From positions 1 to 43,981 of IMG/VR virus record IMGVR_UViG_3300027851_000051: a DNA stretch of 43,981 nucleotides; one strand, 5' to 3'. A model generated the notes under the pieces. The model was not told the DNA's origin, made no database searches, and worked only from the letters and a program-made list of their open reading frames with translations. Each line of letters opens with the position of its first letter. Within the stretch, counting starts at the first letter, position 1. Position numbers and translations under genes: made by a program. The DNA is from a virus. This document shows, piece after piece, positions 30,863 to 43,981 of this stretch.

Positions 30863-30913
30863 TTCGAAAGTTCCTTGTTTCTTCGGGCGACGACCATCGC
30901 GGCCCATGTTTCG

Positions 30914-30942
30914 AATTTAAGTTCGGTCTTCTGGAAGGTCAA
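30914..30942 (-). promoter_or_regulatory. Sigma70-type promoter
   Basis: Read leftward, TTGACC (30942-30937), a 17-base spacer and TAAATT (30919-30914) precede the gene starting at 30862. The -35, spacer and -10 pattern is shared with seven other promoters in the genome. Confidence 0.65.
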
Positions 30943-30968
30943 GCGAAAACTTCGCGAAACTTTGCTTT

Positions 30969-31515: not shown

Positions 31516-31529
31516 GACATTTCCCCTTT

Positions 31530-31709
31530 TTATTCCGGTCGCGTCACAACACCGCGACCATTGCGAAACGCCCAAAAGCAATGCTTGCCAAGCCATTGCC
31601 TATCTTCGGCGTTGTTGTGGTCGATATGTTTGACGCTTTCGCATTCGTCGGTTTCGACGTTCCATGTTTCAACGCGAAGATTAAGCGGCTGTTTTTTGAC
31701 TTCGTTCAT
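31530..31709 (-). CDS. Unknown 59-residue protein
   Basis: AAGGGAAACGAA precedes the ATG. The product is Trp- and His-containing, with Val-Glu-Thr-Trp-Asn-Val, Trp-Leu-Gly-Lys-His-Cys-Phe-Trp and a basic end. It sits between two genes of the same unit with short gaps, and codon use (GAA for Glu) matches its neighbours. Not recognised. Confidence 0.6.
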   Translation of the reverse strand: MNEVKKQPLNLRVETWNVETDECESVKHIDHNNAEDRQWLGKHCFWAFRNGRGVVTRPE

Positions 31710-31721
31710 TTCGTTTCCCTT

Positions 31722-31976
31722 TCAATAATCATAGTCGTCTTCGTATCCGTCGCCCGCGTATTCGTTGCAGGCTTCAACGATACGTTCTTCGTCGGCTGCG
31801 GTCAAGCGCGACAAAATCCAATCGGTGTTTTTCTTGCGCTTTCCGTTAATGCCGACAATCGACCATTCGTCAACGCCCGCCGACATAATCCCAACGTCGG
31901 GTTCTGCGCCCGAAATCGTAAATTCAACATCGACCAAAAGACCGCCAAGAACGGAAACTTGAACTTCGTAAGCCAT
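31722..31976 (-). CDS. Unknown acidic 84-residue protein
   Basis: The product begins with a beta-rich Val-Gln-Val-Ser-Val-Leu-Gly-Gly segment and ends in a very acidic Tyr-Glu-Asp-Asp-Tyr-Asp-Tyr tail. AAAGG lies about 11 bases before the ATG, and a promoter at 32014-32042 reads into it. First gene of a four-gene unit. An acidic DNA-mimic role is possible but unsupported. Confidence 0.65.
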   Translation of the reverse strand: MAYEVQVSVLGGLLVDVEFTISGAEPDVGIMSAGVDEWSIVGINGKRKKNTDWILSRLTAADEERIVEACNEYAGDGYEDDYDY

Positions 31977-32013
31977 TTTGGAAACCTTTCGTTACGTTGC
32001 TTCGTTACGAAAG

Positions 32014-32042
32014 AAGATAGGGGCCGACGCTTGAAACGTCAA
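32014..32042 (-). promoter_or_regulatory. Sigma70-type promoter within nested inverted repeats
   Basis: Read leftward, TTGACG (32042-32037), a 17-base spacer and TATCTT (32019-32014). ATAGGGG (about 32017-32023) and CCCCTAT (about 32043-32049) form an inverted repeat around it, with a GACG/CGTC pair nested inside. Confidence 0.7.
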
Positions 32043-32057
32043 CCCCTATTTCGCGAA

Positions 32058-32297
32058 TTATTTCGGCTTTCGCTTCTTTTGGTCTTTGATCCAATCTTCG
32101 GCTTCGGCTTCGCTGTCAAATCCGGTCGATTGAACGACGTTGCGGGCGTTGACAACTTCCCATTCATCGCCGCTTCGGGTTCGTTGCGCCTTCAAGGGTT
32201 CGGGGTCTTTGGGCATGTCGGGGGCTTTCTTTGACTTTGGGATAAAGAACCGCCGCAAGGCTTCGCGGCGACGGGCGCAGCCATTGCAACGGATCAT
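32058..32297 (-). CDS. Small basic protein with N-terminal Cys pair
   Basis: The 79-residue reading starts at the ATG overlapping the previous stop (ATGA). It begins Met-Ile-Arg-Cys-Asn-Gly-Cys-Ala-Arg-Arg-Arg, half of a zinc-binding site. A Lys/Pro linker follows, then Glu-Trp-Glu-Val-Val-Asn-Ala-Arg and an acidic helix ending in Lys-Lys-Arg-Lys-Pro-Lys. A second ATG after the linker could also start a shorter protein. Not recognised. Confidence 0.6.
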   Translation of the reverse strand: MIRCNGCARRREALRRFFIPKSKKAPDMPKDPEPLKAQRTRSGDEWEVVNARNVVQSTGFDSEAEAEDWIKDQKKRKPK

Positions 32298-32545
32298 TCG
32301 ACAAGGTTTCCTTGCACGTCTTGAACGCCCAAGGCAACCGGGGGATGCGCCCCGCCGCAAACCGCAAGCGATATGCAGCCGCCTTGCACAAGGGCGCGGA
32401 TTTCGGCGACCGACGGTTTCCACAACGACACGAAACCCCGGTTCCCGCCTTCGTCAAACTTGACGGCGGTAAGAATGCCGCATTCGGGCATATCTGGGGG
32501 CGGGGTCAACACAACGTCGGGGTTTGCCAGTTCAACGGGTTTCAT
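32294..32545 (-). CDS. Unknown 83-residue protein
   Basis: The product has Thr-Pro-Pro-Pro-Asp-Met-Pro-Glu-Cys-Gly-Ile near its start, a Cys-Ile-Ser-Leu-Ala-Val-Cys-Gly-Gly-Ala-His segment and a compact beta pattern. It overlaps the gene before it by 14 bases and the one after it by 4. Not recognised; conserved-looking Cys and His residues suggest metal binding, which is speculative. Confidence 0.6.
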   Translation of the reverse strand: MKPVELANPDVVLTPPPDMPECGILTAVKFDEGGNRGFVSLWKPSVAEIRALVQGGCISLAVCGGAHPPVALGVQDVQGNLVE

Positions 32546-33005
32546 TGGTCAACGCCTTTGCAGCATGGGCAAAACCTTCGGCGGTTTCTTCGGCGGTAAA
32601 ACCAAACTTCGGCGAAGGCATGGGGTCGTCGGGAATGTCACACCGTTGTTTCGGCGGTGTCTTCGCCATGTATTCCGCAAGCGCCTTCGGGTCAATATTC
32701 GAAAGCCCGCCCTTAACGGTAACAGCCTGCGGCTTGTAAGAAGTCGCGGTTGCCAGTTCGGCCCCGCAAGCGGCATACCCGGCAAGGTCGGCCCAATTGT
32801 CGGCATGTTGCGGCGAAGCCTTGGCGCGAACGACCTTCAACCCGGCAAGCATAAGGGGAACTTGCCAAGGCTTGATTTCGAAGCCCACAATAACCGACCA
32901 TACAACGGCGGTGTCGGCAAAACTACTTTCGGGCGGGCCGTAAGTCGCCTGTCGGTTCTTCAAGACGGCTTCGGCTGCGGCGTCAAGGCATTCTTTGCGG
33001 TTCAT
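32532..33005 (-). CDS. DUF6378-like protein
   Basis: The 157-residue reading starts at ATG 33005, nine bases after AAAGGA; an in-frame GTG at 33011 is possible. It has Arg-Lys-Glu-Cys-Leu-Asp-Ala-Ala, Arg-Gln-Ala-Thr-Tyr-Gly-Pro-Pro-Glu, and Lys-Val-Val-Arg-Ala-Lys-Ala-Ser-Pro-Gln-His-Ala-Asp-Asn-Trp, then Gly-Tyr-Ala-Ala-Cys. This order is that of the phage DUF6378 family, which has a MazG/dUTPase-like helical look. Function unknown. Confidence 0.75.
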   Translation of the reverse strand: MNRKECLDAAAEAVLKNRQATYGPPESSFADTAVVWSVIVGFEIKPWQVPLMLAGLKVVRAKASPQHADNWADLAGYAACGAELATATSYKPQAVTVKGGLSNIDPKALAEYMAKTPPKQRCDIPDDPMPSPKFGFTAEETAEGFAHAAKALTNETR

Positions 33006-33007
33006 TG

Positions 33008-33508
33008 TCACTTATCCTTTAGTTGCAGGCTTGCGCCCGTGTTTTCGTAATACGACTGTATCAGGCGGGCGGCGTCTTGCCAATCGCGTTCAAAGGAAAA
33101 GGCGTAACCTTGGGCAAGCGCAAAGGTTCGAAATTCCTTTTGCGCGGGGCGTATCTGCCCGGTCGGCGTCTTCATTTCAATGTAAAGCCCGTGATACGGA
33201 TACTTCGGAACAGGAAAGAAAATGTCAGCGACGCCTTCGCGAACGCCTTCGGCTTTCATTGTTGCCCCGCGTATCGCCCGCGACTTCGCGTCGTCGCCCC
33301 GGCTTCCGCCGTTCGGGATTGCGTGTAACCATTGCATTGCAGGAATGCCGATTTTCTTCGACTTTTCGAAAACCTTTGCGTCTTTCGACAACGCCCATTC
33401 CCAAGCAACGGCGAACCCGTGATAAGTCACGACCGCAGCCCAAGCGAAGACGGCGGCTTGAATGCCGTGTTCGCTTCCTGTCTTCGCCAGAACGTCGGGG
33501 GTTATCAT
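33008..33508 (-). CDS. VRR-NUC domain nuclease
   Basis: The 166-residue product has Ile-Pro-Asn-Gly-Gly-Ser-Arg (about 63-69), then Gly-Val-Ala/Glu-Gly-Val-Ala-Asp-Ile-Phe-Phe-Pro (about 88-98) and Tyr-Ile-Glu-Met-Lys (about 107-111). This gives the Asp and Glu-x-Lys of a PD-(D/E)XK site, followed by Gln-x2-Phe. The pattern is that of VRR-NUC nucleases, which cut branched DNA in other phages. Its stop overlaps the next start, and its own start overlaps the previous gene by ATGA. Confidence 0.8.
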   Translation of the reverse strand: MITPDVLAKTGSEHGIQAAVFAWAAVVTYHGFAVAWEWALSKDAKVFEKSKKIGIPAMQWLHAIPNGGSRGDDAKSRAIRGATMKAEGVREGVADIFFPVPKYPYHGLYIEMKTPTGQIRPAQKEFRTFALAQGYAFSFERDWQDAARLIQSYYENTGASLQLKDK

Positions 33509-33717
33509 TCCAGAAACCCCGCCCGGTCAAGGTCGGAAACCAAATCGCGAAGCGCGGCCCCGTTGCATTTCGCCATGACGCGAACGGTCGAACGCGCAAC
33601 ATTGACTTCGATTGCACAACCAGAATGTTCGGTTTCGATTTGGTCAACGATTGCCGCAATCTTCGTAATTGCTGCGCTGGAATGCGACGGGGCGGTTGTT
33701 TCGATTTCGTGTTGCAT
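33505..33717 (-). CDS. Unknown 70-residue protein
   Basis: The start at 33717 has AAGGG nine bases upstream; longer starts would lie in the promoter. The product has a helical N-terminal half and a Val-Arg-Val-Met-Ala-Lys-Cys-Asn-Gly strand. It is the first gene of a unit running to 32058. Not recognised. Confidence 0.6.
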   Translation of the reverse strand: MQHEIETTAPSHSSAAITKIAAIVDQIETEHSGCAIEVNVARSTVRVMAKCNGAALRDLVSDLDRAGFLE

Positions 33718-33754
33718 GTCGGTTAGCCCTTCGGTGTTCGGTTTCGTTAAAAAC

Positions 33755-33797
33755 AACATATTTGTTCGCCGAAAGCCCGTCAAGACCTTCGGCGAAC
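33755..33797 (-). promoter_or_regulatory. Sigma70-type promoter with -35 in the loop of a perfect inverted repeat
   Basis: Read leftward, TTGACG (33783-33778), a 17-base spacer and TATGTT (33760-33755). A perfect 10-base inverted repeat (33764-33773 and 33788-33797) places the -35 in its 14-base loop. It could be an operator, or the terminator of the gene ending at 33808. Confidence 0.72.
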
Positions 33798-33807
33798 ATT
33801 TCGACGT

Positions 33808-34182
33808 TTATTTTCGCGGCTTCTTCGCAAACAACCCGACGACCGCAGAGACAAGCGCCCCTTGCATCTTGTCAAGCAACGACAGTTCGGGGAAGTCGGG
33901 CAACAGTTCGCCCGGCATAGCGATTTCGTCGTAAAGGTCGGGGGCATGGCGCTTCAAGAACTTTTCAGCTTCGAACCATGCTTCGCCGTCGTCGTCTTCA
34001 AGCATGTCGAAAATGCGTTCGCAGGCTTCGCGTTCCCGTTCGGCAACGACTGACATAATCGCGTTAATCGCGCCGTCGAAGCAAACGCCGCAATTCGCGG
34101 GATTCTTGCCGCTGTCGCCACAACCCCTTGAAAATTCCTTCACAATGCGGGCGACGGCTTCTTTCGTCGTTTCTTCGGTCAT
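33808..34182 (-). CDS. Unknown 124-residue protein
   Basis: The product begins Thr-Glu-Glu-Thr-Thr-Lys-Glu and has a Cys-rich middle (Cys-Gly-Asp and Cys-Gly-Val-Cys-Phe-Asp) that may bind metal. An Arg-Glu-Arg-Glu-Ala-Cys-Glu-Arg-Ile helix, an acidic Asp-Asp-Asp-Gly-Glu-Ala-Trp segment and a hydrophobic C-terminal stretch with Phe-Ala-Lys-Lys follow. It overlaps the MazG-like gene by 4 bases. Not recognised. Confidence 0.65.
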   Translation of the reverse strand: MTEETTKEAVARIVKEFSRGCGDSGKNPANCGVCFDGAINAIMSVVAEREREACERIFDMLEDDDGEAWFEAEKFLKRHAPDLYDEIAMPGELLPDFPELSLLDKMQGALVSAVVGLFAKKPRK

Positions 34183-34715
34183 TTGCCCAACCCGTCGCGT
34201 TCAAGCGCGTCGCGCATGGCTTCTTCATAGGCTTGCGCTTCGGATTCGGTTCGCAGCCCTTCGCCGCATTGGGCAAGTTTCGCGTCGAACGCTTCTGCGA
34301 AGTCGTCTTCGGCAACTTCTTCGTCGGTCGCAACGCCGTAATCAGGGTGACGCGGCGACAGTTCTTCAACCTTGTCGGCGCGGGCAATGGCTGCGGCGTT
34401 CGAATACGACCCGGCGGCGTAACGCTTCGAAAGCTTGGCGTTGTTGTGCAAAAGAATTTCGTCTTCGGTAATGCCAAGGCGGTTCATAAGCCCGGCCATG
34501 TAAAACCGAAGGTCGCCCAATTCTTCAACGACGTTTTCGCGGTCAAGTTCGCGCTTGTAAACGACATGCTTCTTGATTGCGTCAAGAAGTTCGCCAGCTT
34601 CGCCCGAAACGCCCGTTGCCATATGCCAAAGGTCGGCTTCGCTTTCGGTCAACTTGGCGGCAATTTCCGCGCCCGACTTCGACAAGTCTTGCGCCATTTG
34701 CTGAAACGACTTCAT
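34179..34715 (-). CDS. MazG-like nucleotide pyrophosphohydrolase
   Basis: The 178-residue product has Val-Ser-Gly-Glu-Ala-Gly-Glu-Leu (about 35-42), Asp-Ala-Ile-Lys-Lys, and Glu-Asn-Val-Val-Glu-Glu-Leu-Gly-Asp (about 58-66), the paired acidic motifs of MazG-type NTP pyrophosphohydrolases. The C-terminal part is an acidic helical extension. Such enzymes hydrolyse nucleotides, and in phages are thought to act on alarmones or unusual dNTPs. It overlaps both neighbours by a few bases. Confidence 0.8.
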   Translation of the reverse strand: MKSFQQMAQDLSKSGAEIAAKLTESEADLWHMATGVSGEAGELLDAIKKHVVYKRELDRENVVEELGDLRFYMAGLMNRLGITEDEILLHNNAKLSKRYAAGSYSNAAAIARADKVEELSPRHPDYGVATDEEVAEDDFAEAFDAKLAQCGEGLRTESEAQAYEEAMRDALERDGLGK

Positions 34716-34909
34716 TCTTGCGGTTCCTTCTTTCCGATAAAATCGCGCTGCGGGCGACTTTGGGGTTTCTGTTCAACGACGGCGGGCGCGGGGTTTTCAA
34801 GGGCTTCGACCCGTTTTTGCAAGTCGGCAATCTGCGCCCGTTCTTCTTCCCGCTTCTTTCGCGCAATTTCAATCTTGTCTTTGCGCGTAAACTTCTTCGG
34901 CTGTTTCAT
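34712..34909 (-). CDS. Small Lys-rich coiled-coil protein
   Basis: The 65-residue product starts at the ATG preceded by AAAGGAAC. It begins with Lys/Arg-rich Lys-Phe-Thr-Arg-Lys-Asp-Lys-Ile and forms a heptad-like helix (about 20-40), then a Pro/Gln/Lys tail. The longer frame upstream is not needed. Probably nucleic-acid binding; not recognised. Confidence 0.6.
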   Translation of the reverse strand: MKQPKKFTRKDKIEIARKKREEERAQIADLQKRVEALENPAPAVVEQKPQSRPQRDFIGKKEPQE

Positions 34910-34925
34910 GGTTCGGCGTTCCTTT

Positions 34926-35555
34926 CTATGCCAAAAGACGATAAACTTTTCCAGTTGTTCCGAAGTGTTGTTCTGCGAATGCTTCGGGAACTTCATAAAG
35001 TTTACCTTCCGAAACAAGTTCAGTCAACAGCTTTTTCAACAGCGCAGTTCCGCCGCCTTGCGACTTCCGAAACAAAGCAAGCGGAACAACCCGGCGACTA
35101 AGCATTGAATACGAAAACGCCCGTTCGTCTTGCCATTCCTTCGTAAACTTCGGTTCGTATGTCGCGAAGTCTTCCGGCGGCTTTTCAAAAAACCCGGCAA
35201 TCACTTGCATAACAAGCGCCTTCGGTTCAAGGGCTTCGTCGGTCGCCAGTTCTTCGGGTTTGCCCACATATGCGTAAAACCGCTTCGCGCTGCGGCCCGG
35301 CTGCAACCGTCGAACTTCAAAAACGGGCGGGTCGCCGTGTTCGAAGACGACAAGCGGCTTTTGCGCGGTTGACATGTCTTCGGCGATTTCGCGAAGCAAC
35401 TTCAACGAAAACCCGCTTTTCGGTATCGCGAAGGCTTCGTTCGGTTGCAGTTCAAGCGCAAGCCCCATTTCGACGTAATGGCGTTCAACGTCTTCGCCAA
35501 GGTTAGAAGCTGGAACAATGCGCGGGTTTCGCGCTTCAACGGGTTCGTCGGTCAT
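34926..35555 (-). CDS. Unknown 209-residue protein
   Basis: AAAGGAAAC precedes the ATG at 35555; a TTG six bases earlier is in frame. The product has Gly-Leu-Ala-Leu-Glu-Leu-Gln-Pro, a Lys-Ser-Gly-Phe-Ser-Leu-Lys-Leu-Leu segment and Glu-His-Gly-Asp-Pro-Pro-Val-Phe-Glu-Val-Arg-Arg. It ends with a helix-turn-helix-like region, Leu-Leu-Thr-Glu-Leu-Val-Ser-Glu-Gly-Lys-Leu-Tyr-Glu-Val, then Val-Tyr-Arg-Leu. It is first in a four-gene unit with its own promoter. A DNA-binding role is possible; family not recognised. Confidence 0.65.
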   Translation of the reverse strand: MTDEPVEARNPRIVPASNLGEDVERHYVEMGLALELQPNEAFAIPKSGFSLKLLREIAEDMSTAQKPLVVFEHGDPPVFEVRRLQPGRSAKRFYAYVGKPEELATDEALEPKALVMQVIAGFFEKPPEDFATYEPKFTKEWQDERAFSYSMLSRRVVPLALFRKSQGGGTALLKKLLTELVSEGKLYEVPEAFAEQHFGTTGKVYRLLA

Positions 35556-35583
35556 GGTCAAGTTTCCTTTTATTGTTCGGCGA

Positions 35584-35613
35584 AGTTTACGACGGTCAAA
35601 AACAGCCTGTCAA
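35584..35613 (-). promoter_or_regulatory. Sigma70-type promoter
   Basis: Read leftward, TTGACA (35613-35608), an 18-base spacer and TAAACT (35589-35584) precede the gene starting at 35555. A small ATTAT-CGCA-ATAAT hairpin (35619-35632) lies just upstream of the -35. Confidence 0.7.
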
Positions 35614-35898
35614 CCCCTATTATCGCAATAATCCATTATTTTACAAATCGAAGCCTGTTTCTGATAGCTAAGTTATTGAAAAATAAAGAATAAAATAAAT
35701 AAAATAAATAAAATGATATGTAAATATTAGTATAACGATAATGGGGCCTTTGGAACCTTGGGGCAAGCCCTCTCCCTACCCTTTGCCCCGTTATACCAAT
35801 ACCGACCCCCCATTTTATCCGTTTTACCTCATACAAATGAACAAAATCAATGACTTAGCTAGGGTTTTCAGTAAAATGGCGGTAAAATGCCTATTTTA
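35614..35898. other. AT-rich intergenic region, possible replication origin
   Basis: The only long gap without a gene. It has a 9-base tandem repeat AAAATAAAT at 35692-35700 and 35701-35709 with a partial third, and GTAAAATG at 35871-35878 and 35882-35889. Related 8-mers lie on the other strand near 35811. GGGGCAA (35760-35766) and TTGCCCC (35783-35789) form a hairpin, and TATAACG (35731) matches CGTTATA (35789-35795) inverted. Three of the genome's rare CTC words are here. It suits an AT-rich unwinding element with iterons. The hairpin and T-rich tract could also end the leftward unit starting at 36853. Confidence 0.45.
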
Positions 35899-36513
35899 TC
35901 AATGGCTTAGCGGCTTCCGCCTGCGGGTAACAGCGAAACCCGACGCTTTTCTTTGGTCGAAGCCCGGCAATTCGATTTCGGTAACATCGCGAACGCGCTT
36001 CATATATTCGCGGGCAGTCGCTTTAGATACGCCCAAAGCTTCGGCGACTTCGGCAACAACGGTCGTTCGCTGCATAATCAGGCGGCAAGCTTCGACACGT
36101 TCGACCGTTCGACCGTAAAGCTTGCCATTCATGGCAGGGCCGCGTTCACCTTTGACGATACGAACGCCGTAATCGTGGGCATACCTTCGAACGCTTGTAA
36201 CCGAATGACCAATTGCAACGGCAATTTCGGTTGCGTTCTTCTTGTCGGCGGCAAGCCTGCGGATTTCGGCAAGAACCTTAGCCCCGCGCTTCGACAGGTT
36301 GCGGCGACCCAAGGGTTCGGGCATGGGGCCGCGCATGTGCCCGTCGGCTATGGCTTGGCGCGTCATGGCGACCGCTAGGCGCTGTTCCGGCGTCGGGGCA
36401 GGGCGACCCCCGCCCTTGCGCGGCATGGTATGCCCACAAGCCCGACAGGCGGTCGCAGCAACGCCGCAGGGCGCTTGACAGGCGGGGCAGGGCTTAGACC
36501 GGGGCGGCGTCAT
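35899..36513 (-). CDS. Zinc-ribbon and helix-turn-helix DNA-binding protein
   Basis: The 204-residue product starts with a zinc ribbon, Cys-Pro-Ala-Cys (8-11) and Cys-Arg-Ala-Cys-Gly-His (about 23-28). A Arg/Pro linker follows, then two helix-turn-helix-like segments: Ala-Thr-Glu-Ile-Ala-Val-Ala-Ile-Gly-His-Ser-Val-Thr-Ser-Val-Arg (about 93-108) and Val-Ala-Glu-Ala-Leu-Gly-Val-Ser-Lys-Ala-Thr-Ala-Arg-Glu-Tyr (about 157-171). Two such domains suit a dimeric or two-site binder. It lies next to the AT-rich region and may bind there as an origin-binding protein or regulator; that is inference. Confidence 0.75.
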   Translation of the reverse strand: MTPPRSKPCPACQAPCGVAATACRACGHTMPRKGGGRPAPTPEQRLAVAMTRQAIADGHMRGPMPEPLGRRNLSKRGAKVLAEIRRLAADKKNATEIAVAIGHSVTSVRRYAHDYGVRIVKGERGPAMNGKLYGRTVERVEACRLIMQRTTVVAEVAEALGVSKATAREYMKRVRDVTEIELPGFDQRKASGFAVTRRRKPLSH

Positions 36514-36680
36514 GGGCGGGGCTTTCCTGCGGCTTCAAGCGCCCGGTTCATTTCGCGGGCCATGTTATGCGCGAACGCCAAAAGGTCGCGGCTGCGGGTC
36601 GATTGGTTCGGCATGGGCGAAACCCGCCAATAACCGCGACGCGACTTCGGGTAAACTTGCCAATAAATGCGGGGTTTCAT
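36510..36680 (-). CDS. Small basic protein
   Basis: The 56-residue product is Arg/Lys/Trp-rich (Tyr-Trp-Gln-Val-Tyr-Pro-Lys-Ser-Arg-Arg-Gly-Tyr-Trp), with a helical end. ATGA overlaps link it to the gene before (36677-36680) and the gene after (36510-36513). Not recognised. Confidence 0.68.
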   Translation of the reverse strand: MKPRIYWQVYPKSRRGYWRVSPMPNQSTRSRDLLAFAHNMAREMNRALEAAGKPRP

Positions 36681-36853
36681 TTCCCCGCCCTTTCGTTAAA
36701 GCGTTTCGCCGCAGCCTTCGCGGCTTTCATGCTTTCGTAATGCCCGATAACCGGGTTCAAGTAACCTTTCGGTTTGACCGCGACGAACGGGCGGGCGGTA
36801 TCCAAAACGGCGGCTTTGCGGTCAACGCGGTTGTCGTAAGCTTGGGCTTTCAT
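36677..36853 (-). CDS. Small basic protein
   Basis: The 58-residue reading starts at the ATG preceded by GAAGGAACC, since a start at 36883 would be at about the transcription start of the promoter upstream. It is basic, with Gly-His-Tyr-Glu-Ser-Met-Lys-Ala-Ala-Lys-Ala-Ala. First of a three-gene unit ending with the zinc-ribbon/HTH gene. Not recognised. Confidence 0.65.
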   Translation of the reverse strand: MKAQAYDNRVDRKAAVLDTARPFVAVKPKGYLNPVIGHYESMKAAKAAAKRFNERAGK

Positions 36854-36889
36854 TTCAACGGTTCCTTCGTTGTTCGTTTCCATGTCTTG

Positions 36890-36931
36890 AATATAGGTAA
36901 GCGCCGAACCCTTGTCAACAGGTTCGGCGCT
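36890..36931 (-). promoter_or_regulatory. Sigma70-type promoter with -35 in the loop of a perfect inverted repeat
   Basis: Read leftward, consensus TTGACA (36918-36913), a 17-base spacer and TATATT (36895-36890). A perfect 11-base inverted repeat (36900-36910 and 36921-36931) holds the -35 in its 10-base loop. Confidence 0.78.
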
Positions 36932-36964
36932 AATTTCGGAACAAACTTCGAAACAAATTTCGGC

Positions 36965-37240
36965 TTACGTCATGTCGGGCCAAGCGTCGGGGTCGTCGGC
37001 GCGAAGGGTTCGCCGAAGGCCCGCGTCTGGCGCTTCGACGCAACGGAACTGTCGCGGTATAAGCGTTCCGTCGTCGCTGTAAGCCAAAGGGTCGAAAGCC
37101 AAGGGTTCGTAAGGGTCATACATGGGAAGACTGGAAAGCTTGTTCGGGTCGCGTTCCTTCTTCGCCCATGCCTTCGGCTTAGGGGGTGCCCCTGCGCTTC
37201 TTGCCGGGGCTTTGCGTTGCCAAGGTCGAACGTTCGCCAT
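36965..37240 (-). CDS. Unknown 91-residue protein
   Basis: The product is basic and Pro/Ala-rich at first, then acidic with Asp-Pro-Tyr-Glu-Pro-Leu-Ala-Phe-Asp-Pro-Leu. Its ATG overlaps the previous stop by one base (TAATG). Not recognised. Confidence 0.65.
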   Translation of the reverse strand: MANVRPWQRKAPARSAGAPPKPKAWAKKERDPNKLSSLPMYDPYEPLAFDPLAYSDDGTLIPRQFRCVEAPDAGLRRTLRADDPDAWPDMT

Positions 37241-37458
37241 TATTCGACCTTCGCGATAAGACCGTTTTTCATGGTCACGCGGGCGAAGAATTCGCGGCCA
37301 TCGCGGTTATGCCCAAGCGCGGGCCGATGCGCGACCGAAAACGAACCGTCGGCTTTGTATTCTTCGCCGAACATTGACGTTTCAATGTATTTCGGCTTTT
37401 CGCCGACTGCGGCTTTCAGTTCTTTCTTGCTGGCGTATCCGGTAACAAGAAGGGTCAT
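37240..37458 (-). CDS. Unknown 72-residue protein
   Basis: AAGGAAACGAA precedes the ATG. The product has Ser-Lys-Lys-Glu-Leu-Lys-Ala-Ala-Val-Gly-Glu, a Met-Phe-Gly-Glu-Glu-Tyr segment and Arg-Val-Thr-Met-Lys-Asn-Gly near the end. Two-gene unit with the gene after it. Not recognised. Confidence 0.65.
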   Translation of the reverse strand: MTLLVTGYASKKELKAAVGEKPKYIETSMFGEEYKADGSFSVAHRPALGHNRDGREFFARVTMKNGLIAKVE

Positions 37459-37483
37459 TTCGTTTCCTTTCTTCGGGGTTGTT

Positions 37484-37501
37484 GCCGGGGTTGCCCCCGG
37501 C
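37484..37501 (-). terminator. GC-rich hairpin between two accessory genes
   Basis: GCCGGGG (37484-37490) pairs with CCCCGGC (37495-37501) around a four-base loop, 9 bases after the stop of the upstream gene. No T run follows. Confidence 0.55.
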
Positions 37502-37509
37502 GCTTTGTT

Positions 37510-37698
37510 TCAGCTTTCAATGGCGTAATATTCGGAATTGCGGGCGACAAGCTTGGCTTTTGCTTTTTCGGCCCCTTTTTCATCTTTGCAACTTGCTACG
37601 CGATGCGAAGGGAAGTTTTCGACTTGAAACCAAACTTCCCAAGGCTTGATTTCGCCGGTATTGGGGTTGTTTTCAATCCAAACTTTTGCGTTTTGCAT
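37510..37698 (-). CDS. Unknown 62-residue protein
   Basis: The start at 37698 lies downstream of a promoter and follows GAAGGAAC; the longer in-frame upstream region contains the promoter. The product has Val-Trp-Ile-Glu-Asn-Asn-Pro-Asn-Thr-Gly-Glu and a Lys/Ala-rich helix. Single-gene unit. Not recognised. Confidence 0.65.
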   Translation of the reverse strand: MQNAKVWIENNPNTGEIKPWEVWFQVENFPSHRVASCKDEKGAEKAKAKLVARNSEYYAIES

Positions 37699-37734
37699 TT
37701 CGGGGTTCCTTCGTTGCGTTGCTTCGATATAAAG

Positions 37735-37778
37735 AACATAAGTCTTCGCCGAAGAAAGGTCAACCCCCTTCGGCGAAG
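37735..37778 (-). promoter_or_regulatory. Sigma70-type promoter with -35 in the loop of a perfect inverted repeat
   Basis: Read leftward, TTGACC (37763-37758), a 17-base spacer and TATGTT (37740-37735). A perfect 11-base inverted repeat (37744-37754 and 37768-37778) holds the -35 in its 13-base loop. Its arms closely resemble those at 33764-33797. Confidence 0.75.
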
Positions 37779-37798
37779 ATTTCGAAGTTATTTTCGAT

Positions 37799-38506
37799 TT
37801 ATTCGCGACCTTCGCTTTCGGCAAACATTTCGTCGGCGGTCAACAAGCCCGTCGGGCGGTCGGTCAACGGGTCAAGCTTAAACTTCGCCCGCCAAGCGTC
37901 AAAGGTGCAATCGCCGTCAAGAACAAGGCGAATTGCCATTGTCGCAACTTGCACGGCTTCCTTGCGAACGTCGGCCCGGCTTTGGGAAAACGTCGCGGTT
38001 GCCAGTTCGCCGACTTCTTCGACAAGGGCCGCAAAGGTCACGTTGTCGCCGGGGAACTTGGAACGGGCGAAGCCAACTTGTTTGCGGATTTCGTCAAGGA
38101 TATGGTCAAGCTTCGGCTTCGACCCTTCGATTTCGAACATTTGTTCGTCGGTCTTCGCTTGCCAGTCGCTTTGCATGACCTTGGCAAGTTCGGCTTTCCG
38201 GCGGCTGTCTTGGTCGCGGTCTTTGCGGGCGTAAGCGTCAAGCTTGGCAACAGCAAGCCCGCGAATGTCGGGGTCAACGCTTGTGTCAAGGGTCGTCGCG
38301 ACAAGCTGTCGGCGAACCTGTTCAACAAGCGGGTCCGACGTGTCGATAACGACAAGCTTTCCGCCGACTTCGAACGTTTCGACGTTTCCGGCGTTTTCCA
38401 AGCGGTCAAGCCGTTCGCTGATTTCCGCGATTGCCTTGAACACGGTTTCAAGGTTGTTCGCGTTTGCAACCGCCAAATCGTAAGCGCGTTGTGCAAGGTC
38501 GGTCAT
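37799..38506 (-). CDS. Two-part protein with C-terminal MazG-like domain
   Basis: The 235-residue reading starts at ATG 38506, after GAAAGG; an in-frame GTG lies nine bases before. The N-terminal part (about 1-130) is a long helical region, including Phe-Lys-Ala-Ile-Ala-Glu-Ile-Ser-Glu-Arg-Leu-Asp-Arg-Leu. The C-terminal part (about 145-200) has Val-Glu-Glu-Val-Gly-Glu-Leu-Ala and Arg-Lys-Glu-Ala-Val-Gln-Val-Ala-Thr-Met, the acidic pattern of MazG-like phage proteins. The start overlaps one GCCCACAA octamer (38506-38513 reversed). Confidence 0.68.
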   Translation of the reverse strand: MTDLAQRAYDLAVANANNLETVFKAIAEISERLDRLENAGNVETFEVGGKLVVIDTSDPLVEQVRRQLVATTLDTSVDPDIRGLAVAKLDAYARKDRDQDSRRKAELAKVMQSDWQAKTDEQMFEIEGSKPKLDHILDEIRKQVGFARSKFPGDNVTFAALVEEVGELATATFSQSRADVRKEAVQVATMAIRLVLDGDCTFDAWRAKFKLDPLTDRPTGLLTADEMFAESEGRE

Positions 38507-38518
38507 TGTGGGCACCTT

Positions 38519-38665
38519 TCAGGGTTTGACAAACTTAGCCGAAAAGTCGGCAGTTCCGGGGTTGAAGATGATTTCGGCGGCGGTCTTAGCGCCAGTGCCG
38601 ACAACCGAAAAAGCGATAAGGGCACCGAACGCGATTGCAGCAAGAATGGCGGTATATTCCGACAT
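38519..38665 (-). CDS. Small membrane protein
   Basis: The 48-residue product is mostly one membrane segment (about 5-24) followed by a short polar end. AAAGGAAAGCCA precedes the ATG. Not recognised. Confidence 0.6.
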   Translation of the reverse strand: MSEYTAILAAIAFGALIAFSVVGTGAKTAAEIIFNPGTADFSAKFVKP

Positions 38666-38715
38666 TGGCTTTCCTTTCGTTCTTCGATTGTTACGTTGTG
38701 CCCGAAGATTTGGGC

Positions 38716-38741
38716 AAAATTAGGGCGGGGCCGAAGCCCCG
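38716..38741 (-). terminator. Rho-independent terminator
   Basis: Read leftward, CGGGGC (38741-38736) and GCCCCG (38731-38726) form a stem around a TTCG tetraloop. A spacer and a TTTT run (38719-38716) follow. It lies 4 bases past the stop of the gene at 38745. Confidence 0.72.
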
Positions 38742-38744
38742 AAC

Positions 38745-38960
38745 TTAGGCGTAAAGCGCGACCTTAACGGCGTCTTCGACATGGGCAACCCATTCTTCAA
38801 GCGACAGGGCGCGAAGCTGCGCCGAATAGACGCTAGGGATATGGTCGGCAAGGTAAGCTTCGCCCGTATCTGCGAAGTAAAAATAACCGTTGCCTTTGAC
38901 AACTTCGACGCCATGCTTTGCGATTTCGGCGTTGATCTTGGTAAGGGTTGCTGCGGTCAT
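38745..38960 (-). CDS. Unknown 71-residue protein
   Basis: GAAGGAACTTCCGAA precedes the ATG. The product has Val-Val-Lys-Gly-Asn-Gly-Tyr-Phe-Tyr-Phe-Ala-Asp-Thr-Gly-Glu, a segment seen in small phage proteins of unknown role, and a Glu-Glu-Trp-Val-Ala-His-Val-Glu-Asp-Ala helix. It is a single-gene unit between a promoter and a terminator, suggesting strong early expression. Confidence 0.72.
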   Translation of the reverse strand: MTAATLTKINAEIAKHGVEVVKGNGYFYFADTGEAYLADHIPSVYSAQLRALSLEEWVAHVEDAVKVALYA

Positions 38961-38996
38961 TTCGGAAGTTCCTTCGTTGCTTGCTTCGTTACAAAC

Positions 38997-39025
38997 AACA
39001 TAGGGGGCAACGGCGAACCAGTCAA
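38997..39025 (-). promoter_or_regulatory. Sigma70-type promoter
   Basis: Read leftward, TTGACT (39025-39020), a 17-base spacer and TATGTT (39002-38997) precede the gene starting at 38960. GG before the -35 is shared with the other accessory promoters. No long inverted repeat surrounds it. Confidence 0.7.
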
Positions 39026-39060
39026 CCCCCTTCGAACATAATTTCGAAATAAATTTCGGC

Positions 39061-41373
39061 TTAGATTTCGAACGCCGACGGTCTTTCAATCGCGTATGCA
39101 ACCGACGCCGAACCGTATTCTTTCGACATGACCGCCCGCGACATTTCGGCAAGGTCGCCGCGTTCGGTCAAGGTCTTCAACGCCCGCTTAATCGCTTGGG
39201 TCGCCCCTTGCCTGTCTTTTCGGAAAACCGCGACGGCGGCAAGCTTCCTATGCAAGAAGCTATAAGGAACAATGCGGGCCGAATGAAGGTTCGACGCCCC
39301 GTCGCCGGAATACTTCGCGACTTCGGGCCAAGGCGAAACAACGTAAGATTTAACAGCCTTCATAAGCGCGGCAAGTTGCTTCTGTTCTTCGTTGTCGATA
39401 CCGATTTCGCCAGCGTCGAACCGTTTCAACAGGTTTACCGCGTCTTCGTTGACAATCTTACGCGCCCATTCGCCGATTTCTTCGGTTATCATTGGCGCGT
39501 AAGGGTTGCAGCCGACGGCGACAATCGCCGCAAGCTTCATTGCCTTAACGTGACAACGCGACCAAACTTGACGAACAATGTCGCGGTCGGCGGCGTTTTC
39601 TTTCGCCGTGCAACGGATTTCGTATTGATCCATTGACGCTTGCGCTTCGGGGGTAAAGCCCACATTCTGCGCCATGCTTTGACTGTTCAAGCCTTGGCAA
39701 ATGGCGAACAAGCTTGCCAGCCGTTCGACCATATCGGGCGACGGAATGACGTTCGCATGATTGCGGTTAAGTTCGGGCTTTTTGCCGTGATACTCGATAA
39801 TCGTAAAGCGCGGAAGCAAGCCTTCCGACAACAAGCCTTCGTGCAAGCCTTCGTAAAACTTTTCGGGCGTGCTTTCGCCAAGCAAGGAAAAACCGGGGGC
39901 CGGAAATTCGGGCGTGTTCTTGTCGCGGTCGGAATAGATAGACGGGCGAAGCATGTTGCCTTGACCCGACTTGTTGTAAAGGTCAAGAATAAGCTTTCGC
40001 AGTTCGATAAGATGCGGGGGCGCGTTGTGCGAACCTAGTTGTTGCAGATACAAGCCAAATTCGCCGACAATTGAAACGAACGACTTCGGCCCTTTCGACA
40101 TGTATTTGATAAGCGCAGGCGAAGAAGCAATCGACCCCGGCCCCATAAATTCGTTAGCGGTCGGAACAGTCTTGATTACGGCGTTTACAAGCTTGTCGAT
40201 ACCCCGCGCCATTGCTTCTTTACCAACGCCAGTTGGCGCAAGAAGAAGTAAGTATTGATTAAGCCCGGTTGCCGACACGTTGAACGCCCGCCCCGTAATA
40301 CCCGCGACGAAGCCAAGCGCCCCGGCAATGGCGACTTCGGGAATTTGGCGCGGGGCTTGGGCGTAAATGAAGCGGGCAATTTCGCCGACAAGACCGGGCG
40401 GCACGGGGTAACGTTCGCTTGAAATCGTTACGTCGTCGCCCACAACTATCTTTGCGACAGGCTGATTTTGCGACTGTTCTTCGACGTGTTTTCGGGCTGC
40501 AATCGCGGCTTCGATTTGATTTCGCAAACCGTCAATGTCAACCGGGGGCAAGATACGGTCGAAGCATTTGTTTAACATGTAATTTATGTAATCGTCGCGC
40601 TTCGCCTTGTCGCGCTTCCCAAGTTCCGACAGGCGGAACATTCGCACGATTTGCGCCCGGTTTTGCGTATAGAACGCCAGAATATCGACAAGGGCAAAAT
40701 CAGCTTCGGATTGCGACGAATACATTCCTTCCCAACGCCCGGCCCAAAGTTCGCCGAACTTGTCGCCGTTCGCAGCGCGAAACGCCCGGTTGTAAACTTC
40801 TTCGTCGGTTTCGGTCGGTTCTTCAAGTCCTGCAAAGTAAGCCGTCGCAGCTTTCCCTTTGCCCAATTGTTCGAACAAGCTTGTCGCTAGTTCTTGCTGC
40901 GCCAAGACCGGGCCGGGGCGATAAACATTACCCGTCATTGTCATGTAACGCGCCGACGAATAGATTTCGATTTTGCCCCGGCGTCGGCCTGTCGGAATGT
41001 CAGCTTTCATAATGATATGCAGCCCTTTGCCCGACGGCGAAAGTTCGGCGTATCCTTGGCTTTCGTTGAAGATTACTTGTTGTTGCGCGAACGCTGCGGC
41101 GTCGCCTTCGGTATCGTCAAGGTCGGCAAACGCGAACGGGTCGCCCTTGGTCAATACGAAGCCCGCGCCCGCATACCATCCGGTTTGCAGAACGGCGAAC
41201 ACTTCTTCAAACGTGCCCCAAGTCGTCGGGTCGGTTACGGAAGCAAGGCGACCGCTTCGGGCGCAGTAAGGAACCTTCGTCGGCTTCTTCGCTTCAAGGT
41301 CTTCATACCGCCAAACAATCCATTGGGGCCAAAGCTTCATTTCGTCGGGAACGTTGTTAAGTTCTTCAAACAT
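39061..41373 (-). CDS. Primase-helicase, PrimPol-like N-terminus and DUF3987-like ATPase
   Basis: The 770-residue reading starts at ATG 41373, 8 bases inside the end of the GIY-YIG gene. The N-terminal part has Trp-x-x-Trp-Arg, Lys-Val-Pro-Tyr, Thr-Asp-Pro-x-Thr-Trp and Phe-Ala-Phe-Ala-Asp-Leu-Asp (about 81-87). Glu-Leu-Ser-Pro-Ser-Gly-Lys-Gly-Leu-His (about 115-124) follows, the NrS-1/PrimPol-like primase pattern. The second half has Pro-Thr-Gly-Val-Gly-Lys-Glu (about 373-379), a Walker A without the usual Ser/Thr, and later Leu-Gly-Glu-Ser-Thr-Pro, typical of DUF3987 phage proteins. It should prime and unwind DNA for the encoded polymerase. Confidence 0.85.
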   Translation of the reverse strand: MFEELNNVPDEMKLWPQWIVWRYEDLEAKKPTKVPYCARSGRLASVTDPTTWGTFEEVFAVLQTGWYAGAGFVLTKGDPFAFADLDDTEGDAAAFAQQQVIFNESQGYAELSPSGKGLHIIMKADIPTGRRRGKIEIYSSARYMTMTGNVYRPGPVLAQQELATSLFEQLGKGKAATAYFAGLEEPTETDEEVYNRAFRAANGDKFGELWAGRWEGMYSSQSEADFALVDILAFYTQNRAQIVRMFRLSELGKRDKAKRDDYINYMLNKCFDRILPPVDIDGLRNQIEAAIAARKHVEEQSQNQPVAKIVVGDDVTISSERYPVPPGLVGEIARFIYAQAPRQIPEVAIAGALGFVAGITGRAFNVSATGLNQYLLLLAPTGVGKEAMARGIDKLVNAVIKTVPTANEFMGPGSIASSPALIKYMSKGPKSFVSIVGEFGLYLQQLGSHNAPPHLIELRKLILDLYNKSGQGNMLRPSIYSDRDKNTPEFPAPGFSLLGESTPEKFYEGLHEGLLSEGLLPRFTIIEYHGKKPELNRNHANVIPSPDMVERLASLFAICQGLNSQSMAQNVGFTPEAQASMDQYEIRCTAKENAADRDIVRQVWSRCHVKAMKLAAIVAVGCNPYAPMITEEIGEWARKIVNEDAVNLLKRFDAGEIGIDNEEQKQLAALMKAVKSYVVSPWPEVAKYSGDGASNLHSARIVPYSFLHRKLAAVAVFRKDRQGATQAIKRALKTLTERGDLAEMSRAVMSKEYGSASVAYAIERPSAFEI

Positions 41374-41872
41374 CAAGCTTCTTCCCCGACAGGTATTCGT
41401 AAAGCGTTTCGACGCTGCAAACGCCGGGGTTTGACGTTTTACCCGTTGAAAACGTGCTGATAAACCCAAGCCCTAGCCCGGTTTCATCCGCGATTTGTGT
41501 TAAGGTCAAAGTTCGCCGACGACTGTTCAAAAGCTGCAACGTCACGTCGCGAAGCTTCGACCCCTGCGCGTCGGTATGCCGCGCCGTCGCAGGCGTCTTC
41601 CCCCGCTTGGCGTATGTATTCAACAAGGGCCTAAGCTTGTAAACAGCTTCGTTTTCGCGGTCGGAAAGCTGCGCTTCGGTCACGGGCGCAAAGTCAATGT
41701 GGGTTGCGTTGTTTGCGGCGAAGTCGGCCTTTTTGTTATGTTTGACGACCCGACGCCGAACGTTCTTCGAACTACCAACATATAGACATGTTGCGCCAGA
41801 ATACACAATATATAGCCCCGACGCGGCGGGAAGCTGATTTTCGTCGCCGTAACGAACTGTAAACTTTGACAT
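41366..41872 (-). CDS. GIY-YIG nuclease domain fused to helix-turn-helix domain
   Basis: The 168-residue product has the GIY-YIG order: Gly-Leu-Tyr-Ile-Val-Tyr (19-24), Leu-Tyr-Val-Gly-Ser-Ser (30-35), Arg-Arg-Val-x-x-His (about 40-45), Glu (about 74) and Asn (about 85) in the following helix. The C-terminal 60 residues read as an XRE-like helix-turn-helix: Leu-Thr-Gln-Ile-Ala-Asp-Glu-Thr-Gly-Leu-Gly-Leu-Gly-Phe-Ile-Ser. It lies at the head of the leftward primase unit, divergent from the replication operon, where phage regulators usually sit. It could cut DNA, repress its own region, or both. Confidence 0.78.
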   Translation of the reverse strand: MSKFTVRYGDENQLPAASGLYIVYSGATCLYVGSSKNVRRRVVKHNKKADFAANNATHIDFAPVTEAQLSDRENEAVYKLRPLLNTYAKRGKTPATARHTDAQGSKLRDVTLQLLNSRRRTLTLTQIADETGLGLGFISTFSTGKTSNPGVCSVETLYEYLSGKKLDV

Positions 41873-41902
41873 TTCTTTGACCGCCCCTTAAACTTGCCTT
41901 CG

Positions 41903-41930
41903 GTTATAGCGGCAAAAAAAATTTGCACAA
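41903..41930 (-). promoter_or_regulatory. Possible leftward promoter and operator
   Basis: Read leftward, TTGTGC (41930-41925), a 16-base spacer and TATAAC (41908-41903) precede the GIY-YIG/HTH gene. GCAAA (41912-41916) and TTTGC (41922-41926) form an inverted repeat within the spacer that could be an operator. Confidence 0.45.
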
Positions 41931-41943
41931 CAAAAAAATTCGT

Positions 41944-41972
41944 TTGACAACCCCTTTTGCCGCCCCTATGTT
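41944..41972 (+). promoter_or_regulatory. Rightward sigma70-type promoter of the replication operon
   Basis: Consensus TTGACA (41944-41949), a 17-base spacer and TATGTT (41967-41972). The same form as the leftward accessory promoters. A GTTCGAAC palindrome (41970-41977) overlaps the -10 and could bind a regulator. Confidence 0.82.
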
Positions 41973-42014
41973 CGAACTTGTGAACAGCAACCCAAGCCGA
42001 AAGGAACTAACGAA

Positions 42015-42527
42015 ATGCGAAGCTTTACTAGCCCGACGACGGGCGAAGTTGTCGAAATGACCGACGCGCAATTTGCGGCATTTCACGACGAAACGCTTGC
42101 CAAATGGGAAGCGTCGAAAACCGCGCTTGACGCCGCCAAAGAAGCCGAAATGACGCTTCGCAAGCTTTACGTCGCGTTGGCTTCCGACCCGACGAAACAA
42201 AAGGGAACGGAAAACATCGCCTTGAACAACGGTTACAAGGCAAAGGTCGTCAAGAAAATCAATTACGGCTTCGTCAAAGGGCCGGATGAAAAGACCGATT
42301 GGGAAGCCGTCATGTCGGCCCAAGACGAAATTGAAGCAACGGGCAACGAAGGCGCGTTTATCGCCGAACGCCTGTTCAAATGGGAAGCGACGCTTTCCGT
42401 TTCGGAATACAACAAGCTTGACGTTTCGAACCCGACGCAAGCGAAAATCAAGCAAATCGCCGACCGCGTGATTGTCACGACGGAAGGGGCACCGACGCTT
42501 GAAATCATCGCGCCGAAATCCCGGTAA
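42015..42527 (+). CDS. Unknown 170-residue protein, first gene of the replication operon
   Basis: AAAGGAAC precedes the ATG. The product is helical, with Thr-Gly-Glu-Val-Val-Glu-Met-Thr near its start, a Lys/Ala/Glu-rich helix (about 30-55), then a Gly-Tyr-Lys-Ala-Lys-Val-Val-Lys-Lys-Ile-Asn-Tyr strand and a Lys-Trp-Glu-Ala-Thr-Leu-Ser-Val-Ser-Glu-Tyr-Asn segment. Proteins of this form are often encoded just before the RecA/AAA-like ATPase of phage replication operons. Role unknown, and I do not assign a family with confidence. Confidence 0.72.
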   Translation: MRSFTSPTTGEVVEMTDAQFAAFHDETLAKWEASKTALDAAKEAEMTLRKLYVALASDPTKQKGTENIALNNGYKAKVVKKINYGFVKGPDEKTDWEAVMSAQDEIEATGNEGAFIAERLFKWEATLSVSEYNKLDVSNPTQAKIKQIADRVIVTTEGAPTLEIIAPKSR

Positions 42528-42530
42528 TAA

Positions 42531-42582
42531 GCCGGGGCCGTGCCGCAGCACGTTAAGCCGGGAAACTGCGGATAACCCCGGC
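42531..42582 (+). promoter_or_regulatory. Structured RNA element between the first two replication genes
   Basis: GCCGGGG (42531-42537) and CCCCGGC (42576-42582) can form an outer stem. Inside it, CGTGC-CGCA-GCACG (42539-42552) forms a tight hairpin, and CCG/CGG near 42558-42570 can form another. This may be a branched structure affecting mRNA stability or the balance of expression. No T run follows, so simple termination is unlikely. Confidence 0.45.
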
Positions 42583-42604
42583 ACAATTCAGGAAAGCCCA
42601 CAAC

Positions 42605-43288
42605 ATGCAAATGCGCGACCTTAAACCCGCTTCCGAACTTGCCCGAAAATTTGGCGTCAAATGCCTTATGTTCGGCGGGCCGGGGTCGGGCAAGACGCCG
42701 TTGATTTTGACGGCCCCGCGCCCCGTTCTTTGCGTCGTTGAACCGGGCATGTTGTCAATGCGACAGGCGACGAACATTCCGGCGTTTGAAGCTTACACGC
42801 CCGAACGTATCGAAGAATTTTTCGATTGGGCGTTTCGCAGCAACGAAGCCCGCAACTTCGATACGTTCGGCTTCGATAGTATTTCGCAAGTCGCCGAAAT
42901 CGTTCTAACCCAAGAACTGAAACGCAACAAAGACGGTCGCAAGGCTTACGGCGAAATGTCGCGTCGCGTTATGGATTGGGTCAACGGCTTGTATTTCTTG
43001 CCGAACAAGCATGTTTACTTGATTGCGAAACAAGCTTCGGTTGACGAAGGCGGGGTTGTTCGGCGGAAGCCGTATTTCCCCGGCCAAGACTTGAACGTTA
43101 AGGTTCCGCACCTTTACGACGAAATCTTGCATATCGGGCCGACGAACGTTCCCGGTATTCAGGGAACCCAAACCGCAATTCGAACGAAAGAAGCGTTCGA
43201 CATTATGGCGCGGGATAGAAGCGGCAAGCTTGCCGAACTTGAACCCCCGCACCTTGGCAACTTGTTCGCCAAGTGTATGCAAGACTAA
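42605..43288 (+). CDS. RecA/AAA-like ATPase
   Basis: The 227-residue product has Walker A Gly-Gly-Pro-Gly-Ser-Gly-Lys-Thr (24-31) and a Phe-Asp-Ser-Ile-Ser-Gln Walker B-like strand (about 90-95). It is a phage AAA_24-type NTPase often found with DUF669-type ssDNA-binding proteins in one operon, suggesting a recombinase or helicase-loader role. AGGAAA precedes the ATG, with a GCCCACAA octamer (42596-42603) in the gap. Confidence 0.82.
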   Translation: MQMRDLKPASELARKFGVKCLMFGGPGSGKTPLILTAPRPVLCVVEPGMLSMRQATNIPAFEAYTPERIEEFFDWAFRSNEARNFDTFGFDSISQVAEIVLTQELKRNKDGRKAYGEMSRRVMDWVNGLYFLPNKHVYLIAKQASVDEGGVVRRKPYFPGQDLNVKVPHLYDEILHIGPTNVPGIQGTQTAIRTKEAFDIMARDRSGKLAELEPPHLGNLFAKCMQD

Positions 43289-43307
43289 ACGCCAGAAAGG
43301 AAACCAA

Positions 43308-43981
43308 ATGGCCCAACTTATCCAACCGTTCAACGCGAACAATTACGACCCGACGCAAGGCGTCGGCGGTCTTCCCATCGGGAAACATCCTGTCGTTATC
43401 CAATCGTCGGACGTGAAAGCGACCAAGGCGAACGACGGCGGGTATCTGCAACTTGACCTTCTGATTATCGACGGCCCCCAAAAGGGCACGGTCGGCGCGT
43501 ATCGGATCAACCTTTACAATGCGTCGCAACAAGCCGTCGATATTGCAAACCGCCAAATGTCGGCGATTTCGCACGTTACCGGGGTCTTTATGATCCAAGA
43601 CACGGCGCAGCTTCACAATATCCCGTTTATTGTCGAAGTCGGGCCGCAGAAGAACGACCCGCAATATACCGAAGTCAAAAAGGTGTATGACATTCACGGG
43701 AACGAACCGGGCAAAGCCCCCGCAGGCGGCGGCGCAGCGCAGCCCCAAGGGCACGGCGGCGGCTTCGGCGGGCAACCCCAAGGCGGGCAACAGCAACAGC
43801 CCCCGGCGGGCCAATGGGGCGGCGCAGCGCAGCAACAGCAACCCCCGGCGCAGGGCGGCGGCTGGCAACCCCCGGCGGGTCAACAGCCCGACCCGAACGC
43901 GGGCCAAGCGCAGCCCCCGGCCAACGGCGGCGGGCAATGGGGCGGTCAACCGCAACCGCCGCAGGGCGGCGGGTTCCAGCC
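43308..43981 (+). CDS. DUF669-type ssDNA-binding-like protein, N-terminal part (partial)
   Basis: AAAGGAAACCAA precedes the ATG. The first about 130 residues have Gly-Leu-Pro-x-Gly-Lys-His-Pro-Val, Tyr-Leu-Gln-Leu-Asp-Leu-Leu-Ile-Ile-Asp-Gly and an Asn-Leu-Tyr-Asn segment, the pattern of DUF669 phage proteins, which often accompany AAA_24 ATPases and are thought to bind ssDNA. From about residue 135 it is a Gly/Gln/Pro/Ala-rich tail with Trp, running off the window. The tail continues at 1-116 when agcc is merged. Disordered tails of this type occur in ssDNA-binding proteins. Confidence 0.85.
   Translation, partial: MAQLIQPFNANNYDPTQGVGGLPIGKHPVVIQSSDVKATKANDGGYLQLDLLIIDGPQKGTVGAYRINLYNASQQAVDIANRQMSAISHVTGVFMIQDTAQLHNIPFIVEVGPQKNDPQYTEVKKVYDIHGNEPGKAPAGGGAAQPQGHGGGFGGQPQGGQQQQPPAGQWGGAAQQQQPPAQGGGWQPPAGQQPDPNAGQAQPPANGGGQWGGQPQPPQGGGFQ
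43717..43981 (+). repeat. Low-complexity GC-rich coding repeats at the window end
   Basis: Imperfect units encoding Gly-Gly-Gly-Trp/Phe-Gln-Pro and Gln-Pro-Pro-Ala-Gly-Gln recur here and continue at 1-113. Such repeats commonly break or shorten assemblies, so the true length of this tail is uncertain. Confidence 0.8.

Follow-up and report, generated by a model that had tools for sequence, protein, structure and literature searches.

Fusion of a GIY-YIG nuclease domain with a repressor-like HTH next to the Titanvirus primase gene: a possible endonuclease-regulator that does not account for the general shortage of GAG/CTC

I-TevI, according to the pertinent passages of PMC2988022, is both a nuclease and an autorepressor: it cleaves its homing site, and the operator from which it represses is similar to that site. 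Odn (Gp88) of the Vibrio phage ICP1 is a chimeric nuclease whose DNA-binding domain is borrowed and serves it in cutting the origin of a satellite; the sections describing it also name the catalytic arginine and glutamate of GIY-YIG nucleases (PMC8263062). The gp210 protein of phiPA3 is presented, in the relevant part of PMC11620839, as a homing endonuclease with a harmful effect on a co-infecting phage. For the gene considered here, Rapala et al. 2021 already printed two versions, as gene 36, in four Titanviruses (PMC8601537); the passages of that paper on the gene only name both versions, and what is described below on the HTH common to both versions, on the exchange of their control region and on selection goes beyond those passages. 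Our search of open-licence papers found no experimental study of gene 36.

The window, that is, the whole stretch of DNA analysed here (43,981 nucleotides, IMG/VR record IMGVR_UViG_3300027851_000051), belongs to a Titanvirus: the top phage records for positions 30001-43981, with 88-94% identity, are RcSpartan, RcTitan, RcHartney, RcThunderbird, and RcMotherGoose. The host of these five named Titanviruses is Rhodobacter capsulatus YW1, and Titanvirus phages are reported to be virulent in the portion of PMC8601537 that deals with their lifestyle. The features of the locus are collected in Table 1. The annotations of Pavpe01, KL1, Halfdan, IMEAB3, and PaMx42 likewise show a small gene preceding the primase gene; except in KL1, the protein that it encodes is a homologue of the fusion's HTH. 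Cumulative GC skew gave no clear signal of a replication origin at the nuclease-gene locus, and the search for repeats there came up empty in the matching stretch of record L004 and, in the window, found nothing beyond short imperfect ones.

Table 1. Features of the nuclease-gene locus in the window (dot, strand not applicable)
Feature	Position	Strand	Evidence or remark
Replicative primase/helicase gene	39061..41373	-	First 8 bases shared with the end of the nuclease gene
GIY-YIG + HTH fusion gene, 168 aa	41366..41872	-	ORF, ATG start; Pfam/PHROG; orthologous to gene 36 of RcTitan and RcThunderbird
HTH DNA-binding domain, about residues 107-168	41369..41554	-	phrog_6223; homologous HTH-only proteins in relatives
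GIY-YIG nuclease domain, residues 1-100	41573..41872	-	Pfam, PHROG, alignment, model, fold search
Exchanged segment, differing as a block between GIY-YIG-carrying and HTH-only Titanviruses	about 41387..41943	.	Six-phage DNA alignment
Candidate operator copy 1, AAGGGGcgGTCAAAgAAAT, at the nuclease gene start	41871..41889	-	Repeat search; inference
Candidate operator copy 2, AAGGGGttGTCAAAcGAAT, over the gp35 -35 region	41938..41956	-	Repeat search; inference; 67 bp from copy 1
Sigma70-like promoter for gp35, TTGACA-17-TATGTT	41944..41972	+	Promoter scan
Imperfect palindrome GTTCGAACTTGTGAAC just downstream of the gp35 -10 box	41970..41985	.	Unchanged in 6/6 phages; function inferred
gp35, divergent gene, function unassigned, 170 aa	42015..42527	+	ORF; phage record annotation

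The sequence-only reading had described the product of the fusion gene as a GIY-YIG nuclease domain joined to a repressor-like HTH, and this domain composition is confirmed. The protein matches PF01541 (GIY-YIG) with E=1.5e-5 and 25.6 bits, above the curated Pfam cut-off of 22.6 bits, as well as phrog_16880 ('endonuclease'; residues 20-92, E=2.9e-7) and phrog_6223 ('transcriptional repressor'; residues 114-150, E=1.6e-4); Pfam HTH matches to the C-terminal part are all below the cut-off. The GIY-YIG similarity as a whole spans residues 19-92. Eight residues (G19, Y21, Y31, G33, R41, H45, E73, and N85) occupy the expected GIY-YIG positions in the alignment and are identical in all three phages that carry the nuclease (the window, RcThunderbird, and RcTitan). 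Five of these, Y21, Y31, R41, E73, and N85, remain invariant when three distantly related GIY-YIG proteins are aligned, and we take them to be, by virtue of that alignment, the two catalytic tyrosines, the catalytic arginine and glutamate, and a conserved asparagine. The AlphaFold model of the protein has a mean pLDDT of 67, with 79-90 by block in the first 70 residues and 40-66 in the HTH part; an earlier model, from an alignment of 4, had a mean pLDDT of 55 and was set aside as too poor. When compared using VIA-align, the predicted model matches the GIY-YIG domains of UvrC (Z 10.6, rmsd 2.1, 79 aligned residues), T4 endonuclease II (EndoII; Z 8.4) and I-TevI (Z 7.0), and its HTH part weakly resembles TetR-type HTHs (Z about 5-6). 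Foldseek with the same model yielded no PDB match at E<=0.001, the best ones, at about 1e-3, being GIY-YIG domains.

Apart from copies of RcTitan and RcSpartan size, a scan of viral contigs found a single further HTH-only relative, and a scan of genome contigs with the window protein detected 0 relatives among 64 pattern stretches. A tblastn search of phages with the GIY-YIG part hit 9 records, 3 of them strongly (RcThunderbird and RcTitan, the latter twice), with E=0.09 for the best of the others. Among known defence families, PADLOC produced weak matches only (the best, PDC-S14, at E=0.0037), and these were not used.

Two alleles occupy the same position in the six Titanviruses, which are a small sample: the window, RcThunderbird, and RcTitan encode the GIY-YIG+HTH fusion, and RcSpartan, RcHartney, and RcMotherGoose encode an HTH protein of only 65 aa. 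The window protein is 96-98% identical over all 168 residues to its orthologues, the 'endonuclease' gene 36 products of RcTitan and RcThunderbird. The segment in which the two groups differ is sharp-edged and lies between conserved flanks; it holds the gene together with the adjacent half of the intergenic region, including the gene's own upstream control region. The HTH of the fusion shares 26 of 58 residues with that of RcSpartan and 31 of 57 with that of Halfdan; therefore, the alleles are old, and the fusion is not simply the sister allele with a nuclease recently inserted.

For residues 1-90, dN/dS is 0.053, 0.058, and 0.091 in the three pairs of nuclease-carrying phages, with 15-19.5 synonymous changes each; these values come from an NG86 script in which path averaging per codon yields a fractional or single non-synonymous count even without any residue change. 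The nuclease domain thus is under purifying selection and, because the catalytic positions are also intact in all three copies, it is probably active as a nuclease. In the same pairs, dS for residues 1-90 is 0.28-0.38, compared to 0.12-0.17 for the primase and 0.06-0.12 for gp35; the HTH part has a low dS of 0.04-0.09. The HTH-only ORF of RcMotherGoose (32274-32471) differs from that of RcSpartan by 3 of 198 bases and from that of RcHartney also by 3 of 198, and the first 300 bases of the primase gene show 63 and 68 differences, respectively. Judging from these comparisons, parts of the locus seem to pass from phage to phage separately from the sequences on either side, and the recently exchanged allele looks to be the HTH-only one rather than the one with the nuclease. 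The alternative is a strong constraint on the HTH-coding DNA itself, given that the HTH part of the nuclease-carrying copies also has a low dS. Both flanks of the near-identical HTH-only ORF differ by about 10-20% between RcMotherGoose and RcSpartan or RcHartney. The primase gene of RcMotherGoose is a mosaic relative to that of RcSpartan, with 23-40 differences per 150 bases in the first third and 3-24 in the rest.

The locus had also been pictured as a switch between divergent promoters. On the gp35 side, this picture holds, with a divergent gene and a sigma70-like site in front of it; on the other side, the promoter scan detected no sigma70-like site on the minus strand for the nuclease gene; a weak TTGTGC-16-TATAAC (minus strand, 41930-41903) can be spotted by eye. 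The term is not to be read as a lysogeny switch, given the reported virulence of these phages (PMC8601537, same portion). The repressor-like HTH at a divergent control region is supported, and regulation may be one of its roles, as had been suggested. The two candidate operators are copies of AAGGGGnnGTCAAA, and the motif AAGGGGnnGTCAAAnrAAT has its sole exact matches in the window in these two copies within the divergent control region, with 3 of 100 shuffles of the window also reaching 4 matches at up to 3 mismatches. Both copies have equivalents in RcTitan and RcThunderbird, where the sequences are near-identical, so that conservation says little; the HTH-only phages keep only the start of the gp35-side copy (AAGGGGTTGTCAA, with one base different in RcMotherGoose). 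As control sites, the candidate operators and the palindrome are suggestive only.

The explanation that we tentatively prefer, while giving it slightly less than an even chance, is that the gene product is a site-directed DNA endonuclease-regulator comparable to I-TevI and Odn. An intact GIY-YIG domain is fused in front of a small HTH regulator that is kept beside the primase/helicase gene in this phage group. The HTH most likely would bind the divergent control region at the two candidate operators and regulate its own gene, gp35, or both. The HTH would then supply the address, and the GIY-YIG domain would cut the DNA brought to it, most plausibly, that of a co-infecting relative or another competing element; the site of action would be the control region or a rival genome. 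Rather unlikely, in our estimate, is the elaborated scenario of a two-state regulatory locus in which one allele is a guided nuclease derived from the phage's own control-region-binding (or origin-binding) protein and directed against relatives with the other allele, the matching site being exchanged along with the gene so that the carrier is spared; this would be an Odn-like weapon among sister phages that is kept polymorphic instead of being fixed.

The window is nearly devoid of GAG/CTC, as had been noticed from the sequence alone: there are 20 sites versus 854 expected from dinucleotides under a Markov model that ignores codon use. The counts under the same model are 9/849 (observed/expected) in RcThunderbird and 10/867 in RcTitan, which carry the nuclease, and 3/899 in RcMotherGoose, 5/854 in RcSpartan, and 6/840 in RcHartney, which lack it. 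Among the relatives lacking the nuclease, KL1 (29/809), VCLv11 (31/792), PaMx42 (38/891), and Halfdan (66/722) are depleted 11- to 28-fold, with weaker depletion in Pavpe01 (139/770) and IMEAB3 (303/765); the hosts of the depleted relatives are Pseudomonas, Burkholderia, Variovorax, and Escherichia. PF01541 was found in only 2 of 11 related records, RcThunderbird and RcTitan. In 20-kb controls, the counts were 56/630 for RcHotPocket, 180/503 for RcCronus, and 501/639 for Kimberlium, and the unrelated R. capsulatus phages are also low in GAG/CTC. The 15 larger genes of RcMotherGoose contain 2 sites in 8259 codons, all frames considered, and the depletion is therefore a property of the DNA and not of codon choice only. 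The depletion is real, clade-wide, and broader than the nuclease-carrying allele, and the nuclease cannot be the general cause of the shortage. RcMotherGoose, KL1, and PaMx42 lack the word in their larger genes, whichever codon frame is considered. Other words are scarce as well: GTAC occurs 0-1 times in all six Titanviruses, with about 74-80 expected, GGAC and GATC are low, and GAATC is found 9 times in the window and 0 times in the five named Titanviruses. No report of a GAG/CTC shortage in the Titanvirus group was found in the open-licence papers searched.

These counts bear directly on the proposal, made in the sequence-only reading, that the enzyme cuts at GAG/CTC and so explains the missing word, which the phage would have shed as protection against its own enzyme. 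The near-absence of the word from the window is what this proposal would lead one to expect, but the sister phages without the nuclease have fewer sites than those with it, and relatives without it on other hosts are depleted, too. The pooled rate is 0.29 per kb with the nuclease and 0.11 per kb without it in Titanviruses, opposite to the prediction (p = 0.0008, or 0.05 without the window, a value not to be leaned on because the genomes are related). This account of the missing word is contradicted by the counts, and we regard it as hardly credible. A host-DNA-degrading enzyme similar to T4 EndoII, with relaxed or undefined specificity, is improbable as well: the predicted fold and the reported virulence (the passage of PMC8601537 cited above) are compatible with it, but sister phages on the same host do without the nuclease, and UvrC is the better structural match, with only 13% identity to EndoII in the structural alignment. 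T4 EndoII is also not known to have an HTH repressor domain, which counts against such a role.

Somewhat less improbable, albeit still doubtful, is a free-standing homing endonuclease, that is, a GIY-YIG+HTH gene that cuts the HTH-only allele and replaces it through repair (intronless homing). The sharp edges of the allele exchange among closely related phages, the presence of the nuclease at one locus in three of six near relatives, the intact nuclease domain under purifying selection, the annotation of a Sak4-like recombinase in Titanvirus records, and the frequent occurrence of GIY-YIG domains in homing endonucleases (an excerpt of PMC1564403) all speak for this possibility. However, the nuclease-carrying alleles are old, with a dS well above that of the primase, and the apparent recent mover is the allele without the nuclease, which weakens a simple homing story; furthermore, the protein shows no NUMOD match in Pfam, and its match to TIGR01453 (group I intron endonuclease) is far below the cut-off. 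One-way drive by a nuclease would not predict a recently exchanged HTH-only allele, so the pattern does not appear to favour one-way homing, and ordinary phage recombination alone could be sufficient to produce the two alleles. Unlikely, but deserving to be taken seriously, is a protein that is mainly a transcription regulator of the early region, with an accessory GIY-YIG domain that cuts rarely, if at all, in vivo. What the protein has in common with relatives in other genera is the HTH, three sister phages manage without the nuclease, and candidate operators lie at the start of the gene itself and at the promoter of gp35; nevertheless, the retention of all catalytic positions under a dN/dS of 0.05-0.09 suggests that the activity probably is used.

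The Titanviruses provide a clean natural allele pair, the same regulator with and without a nuclease, in cultivable phages with one laboratory host, which makes it directly testable whether phage regulators become competition weapons once a GIY-YIG domain is grafted onto them. At the same time, the simplest explanation for the near-absence of GAG/CTC is removed, and the shortage itself holds in most of the relatives examined, across several hosts.

T4 EndoII has the GIY-YIG fold in common with the window protein, which differs from it in the added HTH, the absence from sister phages, and the low structural identity; a PDB sequence search at E<=10 returned no EndoII chain among the matches. Calothrix plasmids resemble the window in combining a short GIY-YIG domain with a small DNA-binding domain on a mobile element (GIY-YIG with ribbon-helix-helix (RHH) or with HTH_31), and Sinorhizobium phage NV1.1.1 has a similarly small architecture, possibly, HTH_17 with GIY-YIG; HTH_31 and both NV1.1.1 domain assignments are below the Pfam cut-off. 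Identity to the window protein is 24-29% and confined to the GIY-YIG part, the binding domains being unrelated, and searches for relatives of two of these parallel small proteins found none. One Calothrix GIY-YIG+RHH fusion lies on a plasmid record (L018, 1453-1944), and in 4 of 7 Calothrix genome loci only the RHH (or the RHH and a short piece) was matched, a similar pattern of presence and absence of the nuclease. Odn, as characterized in the cited sections of PMC8263062, likewise combines a nuclease of the GIY-YIG superfamily with a DNA-binding domain, is one of two alternatives at its locus, and has a binding domain related to a protein at its target; unlike the window protein, it consists of a C-terminal T5orf172 nuclease and a RepA_N binding domain, and its target and function are proven. 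I-TevI has the same order of parts, with an N-terminal GIY-YIG domain and C-terminal DNA binding that includes an HTH (PMC2988022, domain description). In the window protein, by contrast, about 15-20 residues separate the domains in place of a long linker and zinc finger, no intron is known at the locus, and the HTH is a resident regulator of the phage.
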